From positions 1 to 56,283 of the forward strand of contig CALILP010000088.1 in assembly GCA_938016515.1 (NCBI GenBank): a DNA stretch of 56,283 nt. Reading direction: 5' to 3'. Both the position numbers and the translations under genes were made by a program. Within the stretch, counting starts at the first letter, position 1. The number at the start of each line of letters is the position of its first letter. The notes beneath the pieces are model-generated. The model was not told the origin of the DNA, made no database searches, and saw nothing but the letters and a program-made list of their open reading frames with translations. This document shows positions 27,828 to 37,456 of this stretch, piece by piece. This DNA comes from an uncultured Paracoccaceae bacterium (GTDB lineage: Bacteria; Pseudomonadota; Alphaproteobacteria; Rhodobacterales; Rhodobacteraceae).

Positions 27828-27854
27828 GTTGCGGGTGCTCAGAGCACCTGCAAC
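27828..27854. terminator. Hairpin shared by two convergent genes
   Basis: Arms 27828-27840 and 27842-27854 form a 13-bp stem with one G-T wobble (a few central bases must open as loop). It lies in the 15-base gap between the isomerase and RTX genes and covers the RTX stop codon. There is no long T run, so it is a probable bidirectional transcript end rather than a textbook terminator. Confidence 0.5.
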
Positions 27855-30800
27855 ATCTGCGTTTCATGCTTTTTCAGGCAACGACGCGCTGCTGGGCCGT
27901 AGCCCATTGGGTTGCTGCGTAGTTCGGGGAAAAGGGCGAACAGTTCCTCACGGGCCGAACCTGTAATGCCGTGCAGGCCTTCTTCGCCGGGATGGAAGCT
28001 TTCGGTGGCCGCACCGTCCGCATAGACGACCTCGTGATGGTCGAACATCATATGGATGTACGTCACGTCGCCTCCGGTTTCGCGGGTGACCAACTTGTCG
28101 TCCACAAGATGGATCGCAGGCATCAGCACCTCACGCTCACCGAACAGCAGTTCTGCCCGGTAGCCGGTGAACAGCATGCGGTGCTGCGGTGAGACAAGCA
28201 AATCGGTTTCCAGACCTGTCACAGCGCCGGGGCGGATGCGCACTGGGGCGAACTTGCCCTTGGCGGCCACGGTCCGGGACTGGATCCAGCGGATCGGTTG
28301 CAGTCCGTGATCTCGGGTCACCACCATGTCGCCAACCTTTAGGGTCTCGATTGGGCGCGCGCCTTTTGGCGTGGCGATGGTTGTGCCGGGGGTGAAGCAG
28401 ATGATCCGTTCGATATCTGTGAACGTCAGTGTGGTGCCATCATCCAGCTGAACCGAACCTGAAAAGCTGCCGTCTGGGTCTGTGGTGGTCACCAGCGTGC
28501 TCAGGTCTGCCAAATCGCCCAACTGCAGCGTGTCGCCGTCGCCGATCAGGTTGCCAAAGGCGTCCCGCTCTTCGTCGCCGCCATCGATCGTGATGTTGCC
28601 GTTGCTGGTTGGTCCCGTGGTGTTCAGGATCAGAAGGTCATCATCAGCGCCGGTGTCGATGTCGTCACCATTGCTAAACGTGACTTCATCTTCGCCAGAC
28701 CCAGTCGAGACAGTGTCGCCACCAGCGCCACCTGTGACTGTGTCGTTGCCAGCGCCGGTGATAATCTCTTCGATCTCGGTAAAGCTGGTTGTATCTGTGC
28801 CGTTCGTGATTGTGCCGGTTTCAGGTGCTGAAAGGTCAACAACAACGTCCTCGGTCAGGCCAGAGCCATCAAGGATATCTGTGTCAGTGTCGCCTGCGTC
28901 GCTGCCGCCAGCGATGGTATCATTGCCGAAGGTGTCGTTCACAACGATTGTATCGTCGCCAGTACCTGCGGTGATGCTGTCGTCGCCAATACCACCTGCG
29001 ATCGTGTCGTTGCCAGCACCTGCATCAAATGTATCGTCACCCGCACCGCCAGACAGCATGTCTGTGCCAGCACCGGTCGAGACAACATCATCGCCGATGT
29101 CGCCCAACACAGTATCGTCGCCTGACCCTGTGACAATCGCTTCGATCTCGTTGAAGTCGAGCGTGTCAGTCCCGTTATCGACCGTTCCGGTTTCGGAAGC
29201 CGCGAAGTCGACAGTGACGTCTTGGGATAAGCCAGAGCCGTCCAGAACGTCACCAGTGCCGTCCGCGCCGGTTCCCCCATCGATATCGTCATTGCCGAAA
29301 TCATCGTTGATGACGATGTCGTCCTGACCGGTCCCTGTTGAAATGACGTCATTGCCAAAACCGCTGGTGACTGTGTCATCTCCGGTGCCGGACTCGACCG
29401 TAATGCCTGATGTATCAGCCGTCAGGTCAACGGTGTCGTCGTTGTCTGTCCCCACGATCCGTTCAATATCGGCAAAGTCGCCGTCTGATCCAGCAGCGCC
29501 AACAAGATAGGTGCCTTCTTCATCGCCATTGAACGTGACATTGACCCCATCAGTCGTGCCAACCGTGTCAAAGCTGACCGTATCGATGTCCAGCCCATCG
29601 GTGTCTTCGCCGCCCGTGATGGTGTCTGTGTCGTCGTTTGCAGCAACATTGAACGTATCGCTGTCGCCGCCGCCGAACAGCGTATCGTCGCCCGCACCAC
29701 CAGTGATAATGTCATCGCCGGTGGCAGCGCGCAGCCCGTCGTAGGTGGCAAGGTCTGTAAAGACGTTCCCTGTATCGGGCCCAGAGACAGAGGCCGTCAT
29801 GGCGTTGCCGCCGTTATTTTCGTAATAGATGATCTCTATGACGTGGTCACCCGCGGGCAGGGTGATGGGCGTGCCAGAAACACTGATGACACCGTGGTGG
29901 CCGTCGTTGTCGACAACCTCAATCCCATTGATGAACAGCTTAGAGCCGTCATCTGATGCAGTTTCAAATGTATAATCGCCTGCTGCTGTAACCGTCAGAA
30001 CAGACGTGAATTTGAGCGCATAGTCGTCGCCGGCGTCAAAGGCCGTGGGGTTGATTGTATCAGTATAGCCGACCTCGGTTGGGACACCTTCAAAGTCTGC
30101 TGTGTCTTCAGCGAAGCCCGCTTGCGCAAGGGTTCTTGGGTCGCCAGTTGGATCAAGGTCGTAGTATTCGTAGAACCAAGCTCCGCTGGCCGTGTCGCCA
30201 TAAACGATATCGTCTCCGGCGCCTGCGTCGATGGTATCAGCGCCGTCACCGCCATAGATGTCGTCATTGCCAATACCAGCTGTGATGCTGTCATCGCCGC
30301 CTTGGGCGACAATGATGTCATCGTTTGGTCCTTCGCCTGCAAGCAACTCGTCGCCTGCATCAACCAGATCGCCCTCCAAATCACCGTTGTATCCGGCGTC
30401 AATGACATCTGCGCTTTGCGTCCCGGTCACGATCCCATCAGGCGGCGGAAGCGGAATGCCAATGGCGTTCAGGTACAGCGGATCATCGGCCTCTGCGGGG
30501 GCAATCCCATCAAGCGTGACTGTTTCACCGTTCGGGAAGTTCAGAACCGCATTGCCAGATCCATCGTCTGTCACAACGACGTCGTTGGTATTAACCGGAA
30601 CAGTGTTGGAGTCGTTCAGGCCGGTGACATCAAAGGTGTCATTCCCTGTGAAGGACCCATCCCCGTTTGGCGTTGGGGCGTCAAAGTTCAGAACCGTGTC
30701 GCTGCCAAAGCCGTCCGCCAGTACAATGACGTCGTCTTCGCCGTCAGGAGTTGCCGCGCCTGAGGGGCTGAGGTCAATGGTGTCGTCGCCCTGACCGCTG

Positions 30801-32734
30801 GTGATGGTGTCTTCGCCGCTGCCCGCCAGGATGGTGACATCTGAAGTGTTGTCTGAAGCATCGATGGTGTCGTCAAACGCGGTTGCGTCAATACGCTCGA
30901 TTTCGGAAAAGCTGCCTGCGGCAGTGGTGCCATCAAAGGTGTAGGTCCCGGACTCTGATCCGTTGAAGTCGACCGTAACGCCAGCCGACGAGGTCGGAGA
31001 GGCAAAGTCGACCGTATCGATGTCGCCGTTACCTACGTCTTCGCCACCAGTGATTGTTTCGGCATCACTGTTGTCGGAGACCTCAAACGCATCGTTTCCG
31101 GTTCCGCCAAAGTTCGTGTCGTTCCCGGCCGAGCTTGTGAATGTGTCCTCACCATCGCCACCGTACAAGGTGTCGTCGCCAATCCCGCCGTCTAGGCTGT
31201 CGTTGCCGCCACCAGTGGAATCGTCGATCGGAATGGTATCAAAGGTCAGATCACCGATGTTGATAGAGTGGTTGCCGAAAGCCGGATCAACATTGTTATA
31301 GTCAATTTCAATGCGCGCTACCGGGCCTGCGACATCGATTTGCAAGAACCCATCAATGTCATCGACGGAACCACTTGGGGCTGTGGCGGTCGCTGTCGCC
31401 GTGGCTACGCCATTGGCGTCTGTACTGGTTGTCAGTGTTGCTGCATTGCCCGGTGTCAGTGTGACGGGGATCAGGTTGCCATCGATATCATAGGCGCGAA
31501 TGACAACTTCGTCGCGAAACTGGCCACCCAGCCTGTCGATATCTGAAATCCCAAAGGTGACATTCTCGACGCCGTTAAAGTAGCCGGGCTGGGCTGCTTC
31601 AAAATTAATGGTGGCAGTTGCTGCGTCGCCGCTTGTGCCAGCAGTTCCGCCGCGCAGCATGATGGATGAATTGTCGTCGACGCCGTTGTAGTCGTACAGA
31701 AGATCAGTTGTTTCCATCTGCGCGTAGGTGAAGTTGTCTTCTGCTTCAACGGACAGGGAAACAGTGATGTCCCCATTTGCTGATGCGCCGCTGATCCCAT
31801 CGCTGACATCTGCGCCATCGCTTAAGCCAAGGCCGGACCAGTTGAACGTTGTAGTGCTGGCAGTGGCGCCTGTGTCGTCGGTGTTGTCGCCATAGATCGT
31901 ATCGTTGCCAGTGCCGCCTGTGATCGTGTCATCACCGTTCACAGCTGTTGTCTGATCACCCACCAACAGATCATCACTTGCGCCACCATCAATGGTGTCA
32001 TTTCCGGACCCGCCATAAACTTCATCCGCACCTTCGCCCGCAAGGATGCTATCATTGCCGGCGTTCCCGAAAATCAGGTCATCATCCCCGGTGTCACCTG
32101 GCAGGATCGCGTCGCCGTTATCTACGACATCGCCGTTCGGATCGCCCGCATAGCTGCCGTCAATCAAATCGTCTCCGGTCGTACCCGAGACTGTGCCATC
32201 GCGCGCAATAGCGTTGGTGAAAGAGAGGGCCTCAAGGTTGATAACGCCGGTATTGTTGGTTTCAGAATTTCCGTCTTCGTAGAAGATGCGGAATGATCCT
32301 ACGGGCCCCGCGATTCTGACGACAATTGATGACTGGTCATCTGTTGTGACATTGGAGGCTTCGATTTGAAGCTCTCCGGTCGAGCCGTCTTGCTCTGCGA
32401 TGTGTCCGGCACTCGTGGTCGTGAATGTGATCGGGATTGGGTTGCCCGCGAGGTCATATGCTTCCACGCGCACTTGATCGTCCCAGCCGCCGTTACCGGT
32501 TGCCTGATCAACGTCAAACAGTGTGAATTGGACGTTTTCGACAGCGTCGCTGAACGCGACGTCCAAAGCGGATTCGCCGAAAGACGCATAGCTGCTGCCG
32601 CGCAAGCCCACGCCCGTCCGGCCGAAGAATGCGCCCTCTAGTCCATTGGCTGTGAAGCTGGCCTCAGTGGTTACGCCGTTGTCGCCAGTCAGCGTTTGTG
32701 TCGTCGATGTTGTTGGGATGTTAACGTTTGGCAT
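27839..32734 (-). CDS. Large RTX calcium-binding protein with PA14 and C-terminal Hint domains
   Basis: A 1631-residue acidic protein, almost certainly secreted by a type I system, which is not in the window. Order of parts: an N-terminal beta-type domain (about 20-185); RTX nonapeptide repeats of GGxGxDxxx type; a second copy of the same beta-type domain (about 292-500); more repeats; a PA14-like domain (about 850-990; YTFETASDDGSKLFINGIEV); more repeats with duplicated DGSGL...TNGTDT units; then a Hedgehog/intein-like Hint domain from C1446 (CFTPGTTIATPKGARPIE) to about 1590, and a basic tail ARRCLKKHE. There is no signal peptide. PA14 suggests carbohydrate binding. The Hint block starts with Cys but has nothing after it that looks like a C-extein. 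ATG 32734 has GGGAG 8 bases upstream. Adhesin or enzyme role cannot be told. Confidence 0.85.
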   Translation of the reverse strand: MPNVNIPTTSTTQTLTGDNGVTTEASFTANGLEGAFFGRTGVGLRGSSYASFGESALDVAFSDAVENVQFTLFDVDQATGNGGWDDQVRVEAYDLAGNPIPITFTTTSAGHIAEQDGSTGELQIEASNVTTDDQSSIVVRIAGPVGSFRIFYEDGNSETNNTGVINLEALSFTNAIARDGTVSGTTGDDLIDGSYAGDPNGDVVDNGDAILPGDTGDDDLIFGNAGNDSILAGEGADEVYGGSGNDTIDGGASDDLLVGDQTTAVNGDDTITGGTGNDTIYGDNTDDTGATASTTTFNWSGLGLSDGADVSDGISGASANGDITVSLSVEAEDNFTYAQMETTDLLYDYNGVDDNSSIMLRGGTAGTSGDAATATINFEAAQPGYFNGVENVTFGISDIDRLGGQFRDEVVIRAYDIDGNLIPVTLTPGNAATLTTSTDANGVATATATATAPSGSVDDIDGFLQIDVAGPVARIEIDYNNVDPAFGNHSINIGDLTFDTIPIDDSTGGGNDSLDGGIGDDTLYGGDGEDTFTSSAGNDTNFGGTGNDAFEVSDNSDAETITGGEDVGNGDIDTVDFASPTSSAGVTVDFNGSESGTYTFDGTTAAGSFSEIERIDATAFDDTIDASDNTSDVTILAGSGEDTITSGQGDDTIDLSPSGAATPDGEDDVIVLADGFGSDTVLNFDAPTPNGDGSFTGNDTFDVTGLNDSNTVPVNTNDVVVTDDGSGNAVLNFPNGETVTLDGIAPAEADDPLYLNAIGIPLPPPDGIVTGTQSADVIDAGYNGDLEGDLVDAGDELLAGEGPNDDIIVAQGGDDSITAGIGNDDIYGGDGADTIDAGAGDDIVYGDTASGAWFYEYYDLDPTGDPRTLAQAGFAEDTADFEGVPTEVGYTDTINPTAFDAGDDYALKFTSVLTVTAAGDYTFETASDDGSKLFINGIEVVDNDGHHGVISVSGTPITLPAGDHVIEIIYYENNGGNAMTASVSGPDTGNVFTDLATYDGLRAATGDDIITGGAGDDTLFGGGDSDTFNVAANDDTDTITGGEDTDGLDIDTVSFDTVGTTDGVNVTFNGDEEGTYLVGAAGSDGDFADIERIVGTDNDDTVDLTADTSGITVESGTGDDTVTSGFGNDVISTGTGQDDIVINDDFGNDDIDGGTGADGTGDVLDGSGLSQDVTVDFAASETGTVDNGTDTLDFNEIEAIVTGSGDDTVLGDIGDDVVSTGAGTDMLSGGAGDDTFDAGAGNDTIAGGIGDDSITAGTGDDTIVVNDTFGNDTIAGGSDAGDTDTDILDGSGLTEDVVVDLSAPETGTITNGTDTTSFTEIEEIITGAGNDTVTGGAGGDTVSTGSGEDEVTFSNGDDIDTGADDDLLILNTTGPTSNGNITIDGGDEERDAFGNLIGDGDTLQLGDLADLSTLVTTTDPDGSFSGSVQLDDGTTLTFTDIERIICFTPGTTIATPKGARPIETLKVGDMVVTRDHGLQPIRWIQSRTVAAKGKFAPVRIRPGAVTGLETDLLVSPQHRMLFTGYRAELLFGEREVLMPAIHLVDDKLVTRETGGDVTYIHMMFDHHEVVYADGAATESFHPGEEGLHGITGSAREELFALFPELRSNPMGYGPAARRCLKKHETQMLQVL

Positions 32735-33275
32735 CAGGAGGCTCCCAATGCAGTCGTTTGCGCCGTTGGGCAATCAAAAGTGATTTTTTTTGAATGGCTT
32801 ATGGTGCGTTTTGTGGTGCTACGATCAAGGCGCGCCACAGCGTACAGAGCACCGAAAAATCGATTGCTCCAAGTGTGCGCGTGCACAGTGAGGGCCGACG
32901 ATGGTCCTTGCAGCATTTTGCGTCTCCAACCTCAAACTTTTACACAACAAACACGCCGGCACTTCCGGCTTGGGCGGCAGGTTTGGCCTGCTTTCCCGGT
33001 AACTCAATCAAAAGAACTAGCTGAGGGCGATGGCGAGACTGCGCTGAGTAAGCGGCAGCAATGAGGTCAATTGAGACAAATTTTAGGCAAAGTCTCGGAA
33101 AAGTGGCGTCACTTTTTGGCAGCTGTTCCCCCCGAAACATCAATTTTTATTCAACTATACGTCAAGCATCGACAACCTAAGGGTGTGTCTTGCGAACTGT
33201 GGCATCATTGAGGCAAATCGGTTGCGCGCGTAAAGAATGGGGGTTGCTGAGCGCAGACAACTTGCCCAACAGACC
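32735..33275. other. 541-base gap upstream of the RTX gene, no gene seen
   Basis: Between the RTX start and the 3' end of the photolyase-like gene I find no convincing coding frame, tRNA or strong terminator. Notable only are an 8-T run at 32783-32790 next to a weak 5-bp stem, and AT-rich stretches around 33140-33160. It is the longest non-coding stretch in the window and presumably holds the RTX promoter. Confidence 0.5.
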
Positions 33276-34451
33276 TCATGCAATGGACGCGATCAACGCC
33301 GGAATCCGCTCTTTGAATTTGAAGAAACCTTTGGTCGCATGCGGCCACGCGTTGGCGTCATAGGGCCTCATCTGCTGCGATAAAGTGATGCCAGCTGGGC
33401 GCATGTCACCTTCAATTCCTCGCAACACGTCTGCCGTCGGCCCAACCGGTGCGTAACTGGTTATGATCTGTGTCAGGTCATTGTTCTGTGCCCATTCAAG
33501 GACATCGCTGATTTGTTTGGGGTGGTCGAATTGATAGTCGGTGCGCATGGCCACGTTGTCCAAACCCGCTTGTACAAATGCTGTGACGTCCGGTGCGACA
33601 TGCAGCGGAGTGCGGCCCGATGTTGTCTGCAACACTGCTGTCGCGACAGGGTCCACTTTCCCGAACATCCACGCCGGTGACATGTCATCTTCCGTCAGTA
33701 GAAGCCCTGTTTTTGCTTTGCGATCAATGGTGTCGCTTCCCTTAAGGCTGATAGGGTCCGGGTTGGGCGGTCCATCCAACGGCGTTGCCTGCCGTGCAAG
33801 ACCCTTGGGTGAAAAGCGCCCGTCTGTGAATTTTGCGATGTTATCAGCCTGGGCCAGATAGGTCTTGCCGCGCGTCTGCAACCCACCCACCCAACGCCAA
33901 GACAGCGTGTTGCTGGCAGGGTCCCCGTCCAGCAGATGCCGCATGAAGAAATCCGCACCAAGGACCCACGGCAAACGCAAAGTGAAAATCCAGATTGATG
34001 CAAACCACATGCGTGCGTGGTTGTGTAGATAGCCTGTCTCGACTAGCTCTTTTGCCCAGTGGTCGAAACAATCGATACCGGTTTGACCAGTGCAAGCGGC
34101 TTCCCAGTCGGACCTCAAGCCGCTTTCAGTTTGGACCCTATTGAGTGCCGCTTTCAGGTCGATCTGGTATTGCATCCAGACCGATGGCCGCATTTCTAGC
34201 CAGCCTTTCCAGTAAGTGCGCCAATAGACCTCTTGGATGAATTTTTCGGCCGCCTTGGCAGAGTGATGCCGGAGGGTGGCCCGCAGCACCTCTTCTTCCG
34301 TGATGATCCGATGTCGAATGTATGGCGACAAGGTCGAGACGGTGGTGTGGCCCGGCCGATCATAGTTGCGTTGGGACGCATAGTCGTAGCCCGCATGGGG
34401 TACGAACGCGTTCAATTTCGTGAAGGCGGTGGTGTAGGTGGCGTCCATCAT
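33276..34451 (-). CDS. Photolyase/cryptochrome-family FAD-binding protein with apparently permuted domains
   Basis: A 391-residue protein. Residues about 25-212 match the FAD-binding helical domain of photolyases and cryptochromes: STLSPYIRHRIIT (FAD phosphate loop), QEVYWRTY (like RELxWRDF), TGYLHNHARMWFASI (like TGWMHNRxRM), and LLDGDPASNTLSWRWVGG. The usual N-terminal alpha/beta antenna domain is absent; instead residues about 248-391 look like it: LTQIITSYAPVGPTADVL then GFFKFKERIP, resembling the second half of that fold. DNA repair, photoreception or neither cannot be decided. ATG 34451 has AGGTGG 6 bases upstream; the frame is open to 34547 but that would overlap the SRPBCC gene. It is third in an ArsR - SRPBCC operon, 43 bases after the SRPBCC stop. 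Confidence 0.78.
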   Translation of the reverse strand: MMDATYTTAFTKLNAFVPHAGYDYASQRNYDRPGHTTVSTLSPYIRHRIITEEEVLRATLRHHSAKAAEKFIQEVYWRTYWKGWLEMRPSVWMQYQIDLKAALNRVQTESGLRSDWEAACTGQTGIDCFDHWAKELVETGYLHNHARMWFASIWIFTLRLPWVLGADFFMRHLLDGDPASNTLSWRWVGGLQTRGKTYLAQADNIAKFTDGRFSPKGLARQATPLDGPPNPDPISLKGSDTIDRKAKTGLLLTEDDMSPAWMFGKVDPVATAVLQTTSGRTPLHVAPDVTAFVQAGLDNVAMRTDYQFDHPKQISDVLEWAQNNDLTQIITSYAPVGPTADVLRGIEGDMRPAGITLSQQMRPYDANAWPHATKGFFKFKERIPALIASIA

Positions 34452-34494: not shown

Positions 34495-34944
34495 TTACGC
34501 GAAAACAACCGTTTTGGACACAGCATAGCAATAGGTACCAAGGACAAGGTCCCAGCCTAGCAAATATGACGTGCTGACCGCGTCGGCTGTGTCACCCAGC
34601 ACGTCAAAGCCACCGTGCGTCAGCTCAAGGCGCGTGCCGTTTTTTGTTGGATGAAAGGACACAGAAACGACCGTTGCATGTTCTTCATCGGTGTCTGGAA
34701 ACCATGCAAACGACATATAATGCCCCGGCTCCCAGCCGATGATGCGCCCCCAAAGGTTTATGGTCCCGTCTGGTCCAACTTCTTTGATGTCGCCGTTCTT
34801 ACAGGGCTCAACGATAATTTTGGCATCAGGGCCAAGCGTCGCGTTGCTGTCTTTCGGCCACCAGACATCCATGTCGGCCAAAAAGAGGTCGAAGGCTTCC
34901 TGACAGGTCAAAGGCACCTCTGTCGTTTTGTGAATTGGGGTCAT
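34495..34944 (-). CDS. SRPBCC (AHSA1/START-like) domain protein
   Basis: A 149-residue protein with the SRPBCC ligand-binding fold pattern: an early EVPLTCQEAFDLF helix, GPDGTINLWGRII, a strand pair around FHPTKNGTRLEL, and a C-terminal helix (YLLGWDLVLGTYCYAV). Members bind hydrophobic ligands or act in stress responses; the ligand is unknown. ATG 34944 overlaps the arsR stop (ATGA), so it is translationally coupled to the regulator, a very common ArsR-SRPBCC pairing. Confidence 0.85.
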   Translation of the reverse strand: MTPIHKTTEVPLTCQEAFDLFLADMDVWWPKDSNATLGPDAKIIVEPCKNGDIKEVGPDGTINLWGRIIGWEPGHYMSFAWFPDTDEEHATVVSVSFHPTKNGTRLELTHGGFDVLGDTADAVSTSYLLGWDLVLGTYCYAVSKTVVFA

Positions 34945-35261
34945 GTCCTGTCCTTTCCGGCGGCTTTGTCTTGGGCGGCCTTGGTGTAAGCAGCAAGGGC
35001 GTCGTCCCACATGCTATCAAGGTATTTACGCAGATCGTCTGCGCCTTTCGGGTCAATCGCATACAGCCTGCGGGTGCCTTCGGTTCGAACGGTCAAAAGG
35101 CCGGCGTCCGACAAAACCCGCAAATGCTGGCTTACTGCAGGGCGGCTGACTGGCAGGGTCTGTGCCAATGCGCCAACGTGCAGGGGGCCTGCCTTGAGAG
35201 CTTCTAGGACCAGCCTACGTGTCGGGTCGGCGAGGGCGGCTATTGTCATTCCGTAAGTCAT
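34941..35261 (-). CDS. ArsR-family transcriptional regulator
   Basis: A 106-residue winged-helix repressor. The family start ALADPTRRLVLEAL and the recognition region VSRPAVSQHLRVLSDAGLL are clear, followed by a wing (RTEGTRRLYAI). There is no Cys pair for metal sensing, so it is of the non-metal ArsR type usually found with SRPBCC partners. Start is uncertain: ATG 35261 or ATG 35249 (removing four residues); neither has a strong ribosome site. Two tandem palindromes at 35251-35287 overlap or abut the start and suggest autoregulation. Confidence 0.9.
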   Translation of the reverse strand: MTYGMTIAALADPTRRLVLEALKAGPLHVGALAQTLPVSRPAVSQHLRVLSDAGLLTVRTEGTRRLYAIDPKGADDLRKYLDSMWDDALAAYTKAAQDKAAGKDRT

Positions 35262-35399: not shown

Positions 35400-36029
35400 A
35401 TGCAAGATCCAGTAGAAACATATATGAACCTCGTGCCTATGGTGGTCGAACAGACCGCACGCGGCGAGCGCGCCTATGATATCTTTTCCCGCCTGCTAAA
35501 AGAGCGGATCATTTTCCTGAACGGTCCAGTGCACGATGGCATGAGCCAGCTGGTCGTAGCCCAGCTTTTGCACCTTGAGGCAGAGAACCCTAAGAAAGAG
35601 ATCAGCATGTACATCAATAGCCCTGGCGGCGTGGTGACATCTGGTTTGTCGATCTACGACACGATGCAATACATCAAGCCAAAGGTCAGCACGCTGGTGA
35701 TTGGGCAGGCGGCCTCGATGGGGTCGCTGTTGCTAACAGCGGGTGAAAAGGGGATGCGTTTCTCGCTGCCGAACTCTCGCGTGATGGTCCACCAGCCCTC
35801 TGGCGGGTATCAGGGTCAGGCGACCGATATCATGATCCACGCGCAGGAAACGCAGAAACTAAAGGACCGTTTGAACCAGATTTACGTGGAGCATACCGGT
35901 CAAACTTTGAAAAAAGTTGAAGCTGCGCTTGAGCGTGACAATTTCATGTCCCCCGAAGAAGCCAAAGACTGGGGTTTGATCGACGAGATCGTGGCCAATC
36001 GGCCAAAAGATGAAGATAGCGACGCATAA
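35400..36029 (+). CDS. clpP: ATP-dependent Clp protease proteolytic subunit
   Basis: ClpP is the serine protease barrel that degrades proteins unfolded by ClpX or ClpA. The 209-residue product has the catalytic triad S106 (GQAASMG), H131 (HQPSGG) and D180 (LERDNFM), plus the INSPGG oxyanion loop. Length is typical. It is followed by clpX after 158 bases, the usual arrangement. Confidence 0.98.
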
Positions 36030-36041
36030 TGACCCAATCGT

Positions 36042-36092
36042 CCCATCCCGTAGTGGATTGTTAACACTTCGTTGACACCATCGTGGGATGGG
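36042..36092 (+). repeat. Inverted repeat between clpP and clpX
   Basis: CCCATCCC (36042-36049) and GGGATGGG (36085-36092) can pair across 35 bases just after the clpP stop, followed by CATTTTG. It may partly end the clpP message or separate clpP from clpX expression; with this long loop it is a weak terminator. Confidence 0.5.
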
Positions 36093-36187
36093 CATTTTGA
36101 GATTGTGGAAGGGTTCTGGCTGCCGTAGGTTGGCGCCGAGCAAGCAGTTTTCGATACGTACATGGCCATTTGGTCAAGGGGAATAAG

Positions 36188-37456
36188 ATGGCGACTTCGT
36201 CCGGCAACGACAGCAAGAACACCCTCTATTGTAGCTTTTGCGGCAAAAGCCAGCATGAGGTCCGCAAGCTGATTGCGGGCCCTACAGTTTTCATCTGCGA
36301 TGAATGTGTCGAACTGTGCATGGATATCATCCGTGAAGAGACGAAGTCAGCTGGCCTGAAAGCTGGCGAAGGCGTGCCGACCCCGACAGAGATTTGCGGT
36401 GTTTTGGACGATTATGTGATCGGCCAAATGCACGCCAAGCGCGTGTTGTCCGTGGCTGTTCACAACCACTACAAGCGCCTGAACCACGCCGATAAGTCCG
36501 ACATTGAATTGGCGAAGTCCAACATCATGCTGATCGGTCCAACCGGTTGCGGTAAAACGTTGCTGGCCCAGACCTTAGCGCGCATTCTTGATGTGCCGTT
36601 CACAATGGCTGACGCGACGACATTGACCGAAGCGGGCTATGTTGGTGAAGATGTCGAAAACATCATTCTTAAGCTATTGCAGGCCTCTGAATATAATGTC
36701 GAGCGTGCCCAGCGTGGCATCGTCTACATCGACGAAGTTGATAAGATTACGCGCAAGTCCGACAACCCTTCGATTACCCGTGACGTCTCGGGCGAAGGTG
36801 TGCAGCAGGCCTTGCTGAAGATCATGGAAGGTACGGTCGCCTCTGTCCCACCACAGGGCGGTCGGAAGCACCCCCAACAGGAATTCCTGCAGGTCGACAC
36901 AACCAATATTCTGTTCATCTGCGGCGGCGCCTTTGCTGGCCTCGATAAGATCATCAGCCAGCGCGGCAAAGGCTCTTCGATGGGCTTTGGTGCCGAGGTG
37001 AAGGATGTCGATGAACGTGGTGTGGGAGAAGTGTTTACCGATCTCGAGCCGGAAGATTTGCTGAAATTCGGCCTGATTCCTGAATTTGTCGGTCGATTGC
37101 CTGTGATCGCGACGCTGACTGATTTGGATGAAGACGCACTGATCATCATCCTGACCAAGCCAAAGAATGCGCTGGTGAAACAGTATCAACGCCTGTTTGA
37201 ACTCGAAGACACCAAACTGACGTTCACTGACGACGCACTGACGGCAATCGCCAAGCGGGCGATCGAACGCAAAACAGGTGCGCGTGGTCTACGGTCCATC
37301 ATGGAAGACATCCTGTTGGATACGATGTTTGATCTGCCGGGCATGGACACTGTCACAGAGGTTGTTGTGAACGAAGAAGCTGTCGGCTCGGATGCTTCGC
37401 CCTTGATGATCCACGATGACAAGAAGGCCAAGAAAGCACCGGCAACGGCCAGCTAA
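36188..37456 (+). CDS. clpX: ATP-dependent Clp protease ATP-binding subunit ClpX
   Basis: ClpX is the AAA+ unfoldase that feeds substrates to ClpP. The 422-residue product has the N-terminal zinc domain (C15, C18, C37, C40), Walker A GPTGCGKT (117-124), the pore loop GYVGEDV and the IGF-like region near [13 protein letters not shown] that belongs to the family. ATG 36188 follows AAGGGGAATAAG; a TTG at 36170 is also in frame. The next gene starts 3 bases after the stop. Confidence 0.98.

Follow-up and report, generated by a model that had tools for sequence, protein, structure and literature searches.

The photolyase locus and its surroundings

The window (the whole stretch of 56,283 nucleotides analysed here, from contig CALILP010000088.1 of an uncultured Paracoccaceae bacterium, assembly GCA_938016515.1) carries on its minus strand a gene whose product, taking all the evidence as a whole, is with high confidence a photolyase of the NewPHL/SPL type, with the FAD/catalytic domain preceding the alpha/beta domain. 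The gene and the parts of its product are laid out as follows:

33276..34451, minus strand: whole gene, coding for 391 aa and ending with the stop codon, of the inverted NewPHL-type photolyase (ORF, homologues, AF2)
33807..34451, minus strand: residues 1-215, helical FAD/catalytic domain, with the PF03441 core at residues 71-199 (Pfam, PDB sequence search, AF2, Foldseek)
34212..34232, minus strand: residues 74-80, EVYWRTY, with E74, W77 and R78 invariant in 43 members (alignment)
34008..34037, minus strand: residues 139-148, TGYLHNHARM, with H143, N144, R147 and M148 the same in 31 of 31 rows (alignment)
33891..33929, minus strand: residues 175-187, DGDPASNTLSWRW, with FAD-binding positions D175, D177 and N181 (PDB sequence search, alignment)
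33714..33806, minus strand: residues 216-246, interdomain coil linker (DSSP of the AF2 model)
33279..33713, minus strand: residues 247-391, C-terminal alpha/beta domain, antenna-domain-like (profiles, AF2, Foldseek)

The start codon is an ATG at 34451, which opens 391 codons on the minus strand, and an AGGTGG stretch is seen by eye 6 nt 5' of it. A longer ORF with a TTG start extends to 34547, but homologue matches start at residues 1-16 and the AGGTGG stretch stands before the ATG. An ArsR-type regulator and an AHSA1-type gene lie immediately upstream on the same strand (34495-35261, 43 nt from the photolyase gene), and a transcript shared by the three genes is possible. Further on, clpP and clpX occupy positions 35400-37456; of 81 regions compared (80 loci plus the window), 45 have a ClpP cluster and 39 a ClpX cluster close to the photolyase, counts that are rough because ORFs were picked mechanically and the photolyase itself was recovered in just 69 of the 81. 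This neighbourhood is taken as regional synteny rather than as a functional link. On the other side of the gene, positions 27839-32773 (minus strand) encode a protein of 1644 aa in which RTX calcium-binding repeats and a PA14 domain are combined with a Hint domain at the C-terminus.

The source assembly (3.4 Mb, 227 contigs, 81% complete) contains a second PF03441 gene, encoding a conventional-order photolyase that is also the sole PF00875 match of this genome, and a single PF04244 protein, presumably of the FeS-BCP kind.

Domain order and the FAD/catalytic domain

The AF2 model of the full protein, built from a 43-sequence alignment, has a mean pLDDT of 96.0 and a pTM of 0.92; residues 1-208 consist of helix and coil, and strands occur from residue 248 onward only. 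PF03441 (FAD_binding_7) matches residues 71-199 (E 3.5e-21) over profile positions 1-127 of 203, leaving the final third unmatched, and no PF00875 domain, which is N-terminal in classical class I enzymes, is found at the N-terminus by Pfam or AF2. The two best NCBIfam models, both photolyase models scoring well under their cut-off, place residues 6-198 at classical positions about 205-396, and the alignment of the FAD domain to classical enzymes likewise begins at residue 6. Class I photolyases lead the PDB sequence search (1tez and 1owl, E 6e-16 to 7e-16), in which the FAD domain can be aligned to the A. nidulans photolyase. The full model retrieves 43 structures from the PDB with Foldseek at E<=0.001, every one a photolyase or cryptochrome, mostly over 200-250 columns and with TMq of 0.34-0.44, as one would see if just one of the domains can be placed by a sequential aligner. 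The preliminary description, which had placed the FAD domain first from motifs that are indeed present in the 391-aa ORF, is thus borne out by the PF03441 match at residues 71-199 and the helical residues 1-208. Its term "circular permutation" is loose, as the exchange involves entire domains and PF03441 stays unmatched over its final third; literature on photolyases and circular permutation yielded no permuted photolyase among the titles listed.

Residues were compared across 31 rows (15 from the 43 aligned members of the window protein's own family, three Fe-S-type relatives and 13 classical enzymes). Thirteen positions are the same in all 31 (Y24, R28, S42, W77, R78, G140, H143, N144, R147, M148, D175, W185 and W187), while E74 and N181 each deviate in one classical row. 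Within the 15 own-family rows, E74, W77, R78, N144, R147, M148, D175, N181 and W185 are identical throughout and W162 is kept in 14, and 53 positions are invariant over the 43 aligned members. An altered FAD phosphate loop had also been suggested, on account of the residue found where a Gly usually sits; this does not hold, since residue 40 varies in the own family and in classical enzymes alike (R 3, G 2, T 2 and A 1 among those listed of the 13 classical rows), and the difference is therefore ordinary variation.

The electron chain is shortened. W185 and W162 occupy what we take to be chain positions, W185 presumably that of the first Trp, and in the four classical rows shown the third Trp aligns with N104, so that no Trp stands at the third position and a dyad (W185, W162) remains. 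A cryptochrome-like light sensor devoid of repair activity would be compatible with such a sequence, but is very unlikely in view of the conserved E74, W77 and M148, which are residues of the CPD pocket, EVYWRTY being presumably a lesion/FAD-site motif. The W185/W162 pair fits the "mere Trp dyad" described for the D. shibae NewPHL, in which about 90% of radical pairs are lost within nanoseconds (PMC8948257), and a chain shortened in this way may weaken FAD photoreduction; characterised members are nevertheless reported as CPD photolyases (PMC9426592).

Origin of the C-terminal domain

Direct sequence searches say little about the second domain: residues 244-391 have no Pfam match at E<=1, and an HMM of the C-terminal domain finds no photolyase among its six matches at E<=10 in PDB sequences. 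Over the 43 C-terminal domains of the own family, Pfam reports DNA_photolyase in one (E 0.031) and an unrelated phosphatase family in four (best E 6.2e-5). As no convincing homologue was obtained in this way, a structure search and an intermediate family were used. Modelled alone, residues 244-391 give a pLDDT of 92.3 and a pTM of 0.83, and this model retrieves nothing from the PDB at E<=0.001 with Foldseek; a plant cryptochrome ranks first (132 columns, TMq 0.57, E 4.6e-3). Photolyases and cryptochromes make up 26 of the best 50 rows, with unrelated folds interspersed from rank 2, and within these 50 rows they reach a TMq of 0.57 versus at most 0.50 for the other folds (universal stress protein or USP, PPAT and others). 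The region matched in these targets would be their N-terminal domain, as we infer from the fact that their other domain is helical.

Profile comparisons with hhalign point the same way, though weakly when made directly. The own-family C-terminal profile aligns with that of 17 classical alpha/beta domains over 93 columns in the same register (P 0.0014, probability 17.8%), with USP over 32 columns only (P 0.00044, probability 33.5%), and with ETF or the reversed classical profile at P 0.17 each, reversed-profile controls ranging overall from 0.17 to 0.54. Since USP against ETF scores about as well (P 0.0016), the direct score taken alone indicates superfamily kinship at most. A bridge profile was made of seven C-terminal domains of inverted relatives (from Deinococcus, Persicobacter and the alphaproteobacterium G016). 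It aligns with the classical alpha/beta profile over 136 columns (P 3.9e-10, hhalign probability 96.7%) and with the own-family profile over 133 columns (P 1.8e-6, probability 89.8%), as against 52 columns with USP (P 0.00091); DNA_photolyase is also found by Pfam, below the cut-off, in three of six bridge proteins scanned (E 7.2e-4, 1e-3 and 2.4e-4).

Could the swap be apparent only, with a HUP/USP-like or other Rossmann-type domain of unrelated origin having been recruited independently? The better P value of USP than of the classical antenna profile, the USP and PPAT structures within the best 50 Foldseek rows and the unrelated Pfam family in four of 43 C-terminal domains would all suit this explanation, which we nonetheless regard as unlikely: the USP match spans about a third of the columns aligned with the antenna profile, the highest TMq values belong to photolyases and cryptochromes, and the bridge family matches both profiles from one end to the other, its own FAD domains sharing one side of a fully supported branch with the window family (see below). 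Taken together, AF2, Foldseek and the profile bridge establish the FAD-first order and suggest that the C-terminal domain is probably a relocated domain of the antenna type. The proposal of an antenna-like alpha/beta domain in last position is hence upheld by the cryptochrome that ranks first, by the top TMq values and by the bridge, and is weakened by the absence of any Foldseek match at E<=0.001 and by the faint direct profile score; neither of the contrary outcomes named beforehand (C-terminal residues that fail to superpose on the photolyase alpha/beta domain, or an unrelated fold conserved in the homologues) was found with Foldseek of the isolated model or with the bridge. The relocated domain most likely corresponds to the published "Z-domain", called "an atypical, short photolyase domain" in PMC9426592.

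Occurrence and known types

The gene belongs to a family whose matches are far stronger than chance. A scan of genome_contigs confirmed at least 583 stretches, of which the best 80 were kept; these relatives are 48-66% identical over most or all of their length, and the loci are mostly titled Rhodobacteraceae or genera of the Rhodobacteraceae group, so that most belong to the group of D. shibae. Neither D. shibae nor M. mesophilicum is named among these best 80. The inverted photolyase is common in the marine bacterial group of the window: 69 of 198 genomes drawn from its own family carry the gene at E<=1e-50 (the window's genome included), nearly all at full length, and in the draw from the phylum a near-full-length match is read from the table for 12 of 299 genomes (again with its own included). 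In eight of 69 matching plasmid records, Ruegeria TM1040 and Asticcacaulis among them, the match extends over 80% or more of the query; six of the eight carry the annotation "FAD-binding domain-containing protein", as had been guessed, and two are without annotation there. Five stretches of viral contigs matched the search pattern, and none of them codes for a relative. Fragmentation of the source genome (227 contigs, 81% complete) could raise the suspicion of an assembly or gene-model artefact, but the same order is found in 42 aligned relatives, as well as in the 69 of 198 family genomes, which refutes this candidate and leaves it next to no credence.

The term NewPHL reportedly goes back to Emmerich et al. 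2020. NewPHLs/SPLs are described with an inverted domain topology and with repair of CPDs in single-stranded DNA, D. shibae A8LJA9 and M. mesophilicum M7YZC8 being named NewPHLs (PMC13274461), and both features are also given for the D. shibae and M. mesophilicum enzymes in PMC9426592, where the order is likewise inverted in the picocyanobacterial Phr4/5, Phr6 and Phr7. SPLs are described following Xu et al. in PMC9649867, and constitute one of eight groups in PMC9178010. The architecture of the window gene is thus already known, contrary to the preliminary description, which knew of no such protein, since inverted NewPHL/SPL and Phr4-7 proteins are in the literature.

Most simply, the window gene is an ordinary NewPHL: it shares with A8LJA9 and M7YZC8, as these are described, an N-terminal FAD/catalytic domain followed by a C-terminal extra domain (Pfam, AF2), a chain of two Trp instead of three (W185 and W162, with N104 third) and alphaproteobacterial hosts, and no difference was found between the published description and the window protein. 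With class I CPD photolyases (A. nidulans 1owl, E. coli 1dnp) it has in common the FAD and lesion-pocket residues and the first two Trp positions, but its domain order is reversed, the third Trp is absent and the C-terminal third of PF03441 is unmatched. Phr7 of Prochlorococcus resembles it by description (FAD domain followed by a "Z-domain", without Fe-S cysteines; PMC9426592), but has a cyanobacterial host. Fe-S-type SPLs, Phr4-Phr5 and Phr6 also have the FAD domain first and the alpha/beta domain last or in the next ORF, a likeness drawn for the Fe-S type from relatives that fall together with the window family in the tree, and for Phr4-6 from descriptions; the Deinococcus and G016 relatives differ in having Fe-S-type cysteines (seen by eye), a more recognisable antenna domain and, sometimes, two ORFs. 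The window family has no Cys in invariant or near-invariant columns (43 members), and hence none of the four Fe-S cysteines of that subtype.

The mode of action can be sketched by borrowing CPD repair, single-strand preference, electron path and antenna loss from characterised relatives and general knowledge, and by setting them beside what was computed here (domain order, fold type, conservation of catalytic residues, the missing third Trp and the grouping on one branch). The N-terminal helical domain would bind FAD and take a cyclobutane pyrimidine dimer into its pocket, most likely from single-stranded DNA; reduced FAD would split the dimer through light-driven electron transfer, and would be re-reduced through the two-Trp chain, W185 and then W162. 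The C-terminal alpha/beta domain, as a displaced and degenerate antenna relative, would pack on the catalytic domain and may have lost its hold on an antenna pigment.

Inverted and split relatives

A tree of 37 FAD-domain rows, with a small classical set, two rows for other classes and an unplaced root, gathers the 22 inverted rows on one side of a branch that has 100/100 support and recurs in 100% of 200 bootstrap trees. A Deinococcus Fe-S-type query retrieves a single close relative from 398 genomes of the phylum, that of G016 (E 9.9e-87); a further 20 matches at E<=1e-25 are far weaker (3.2e-35 at best). These relatives, in which the cysteine motif is seen by eye in Deinococcus and G016, are fused in three Deinococcus plasmids (L153, L177 and L180), and split into two ORFs in a plasmid of Deinococcus sp. 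QL22 (L178:2387-3678) and in the alphaproteobacterium G016 (L095:971-2763, minus strand). In both split pairs, the end of the first ORF and the beginning of the second have four bases in common, ATGA in QL22 and GTGA in G016 (checked at the DNA level, with inferred starts and G016 unannotated), and the pairs look like coupled genes. What is added here is therefore the position of the inverted enzymes on one side of the tree, and the splitting of an Fe-S-type relative in a Deinococcus plasmid and in an alphaproteobacterium.

Does a single event account for all of these forms? We would tentatively propose, at somewhat below even chances, that one exchange was ancestral to all inverted photolyases, that the "Z-domain" of NewPHLs is a decayed antenna domain, and that a two-subunit photolyase was a possible intermediate from classical to inverted enzymes, since in some lineages the domains are still separate subunits, translated from overlapping genes. 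Should the C-terminal domain indeed be the antenna domain in a new place, "lacking" the antenna would not be a primitive trait, and an argument from simplicity would be weakened. The split-gene forms offer a natural system for asking whether the antenna-like domain works in trans.

Two Persicobacter plasmids present another arrangement, in which the inverted photolyase ORF overlaps the start of a conventional-order photolyase/cryptochrome-like ORF (L154:2923-5554 and L179:2234-5000); these second ORFs are 507 and 490 aa long, with mechanical starts.
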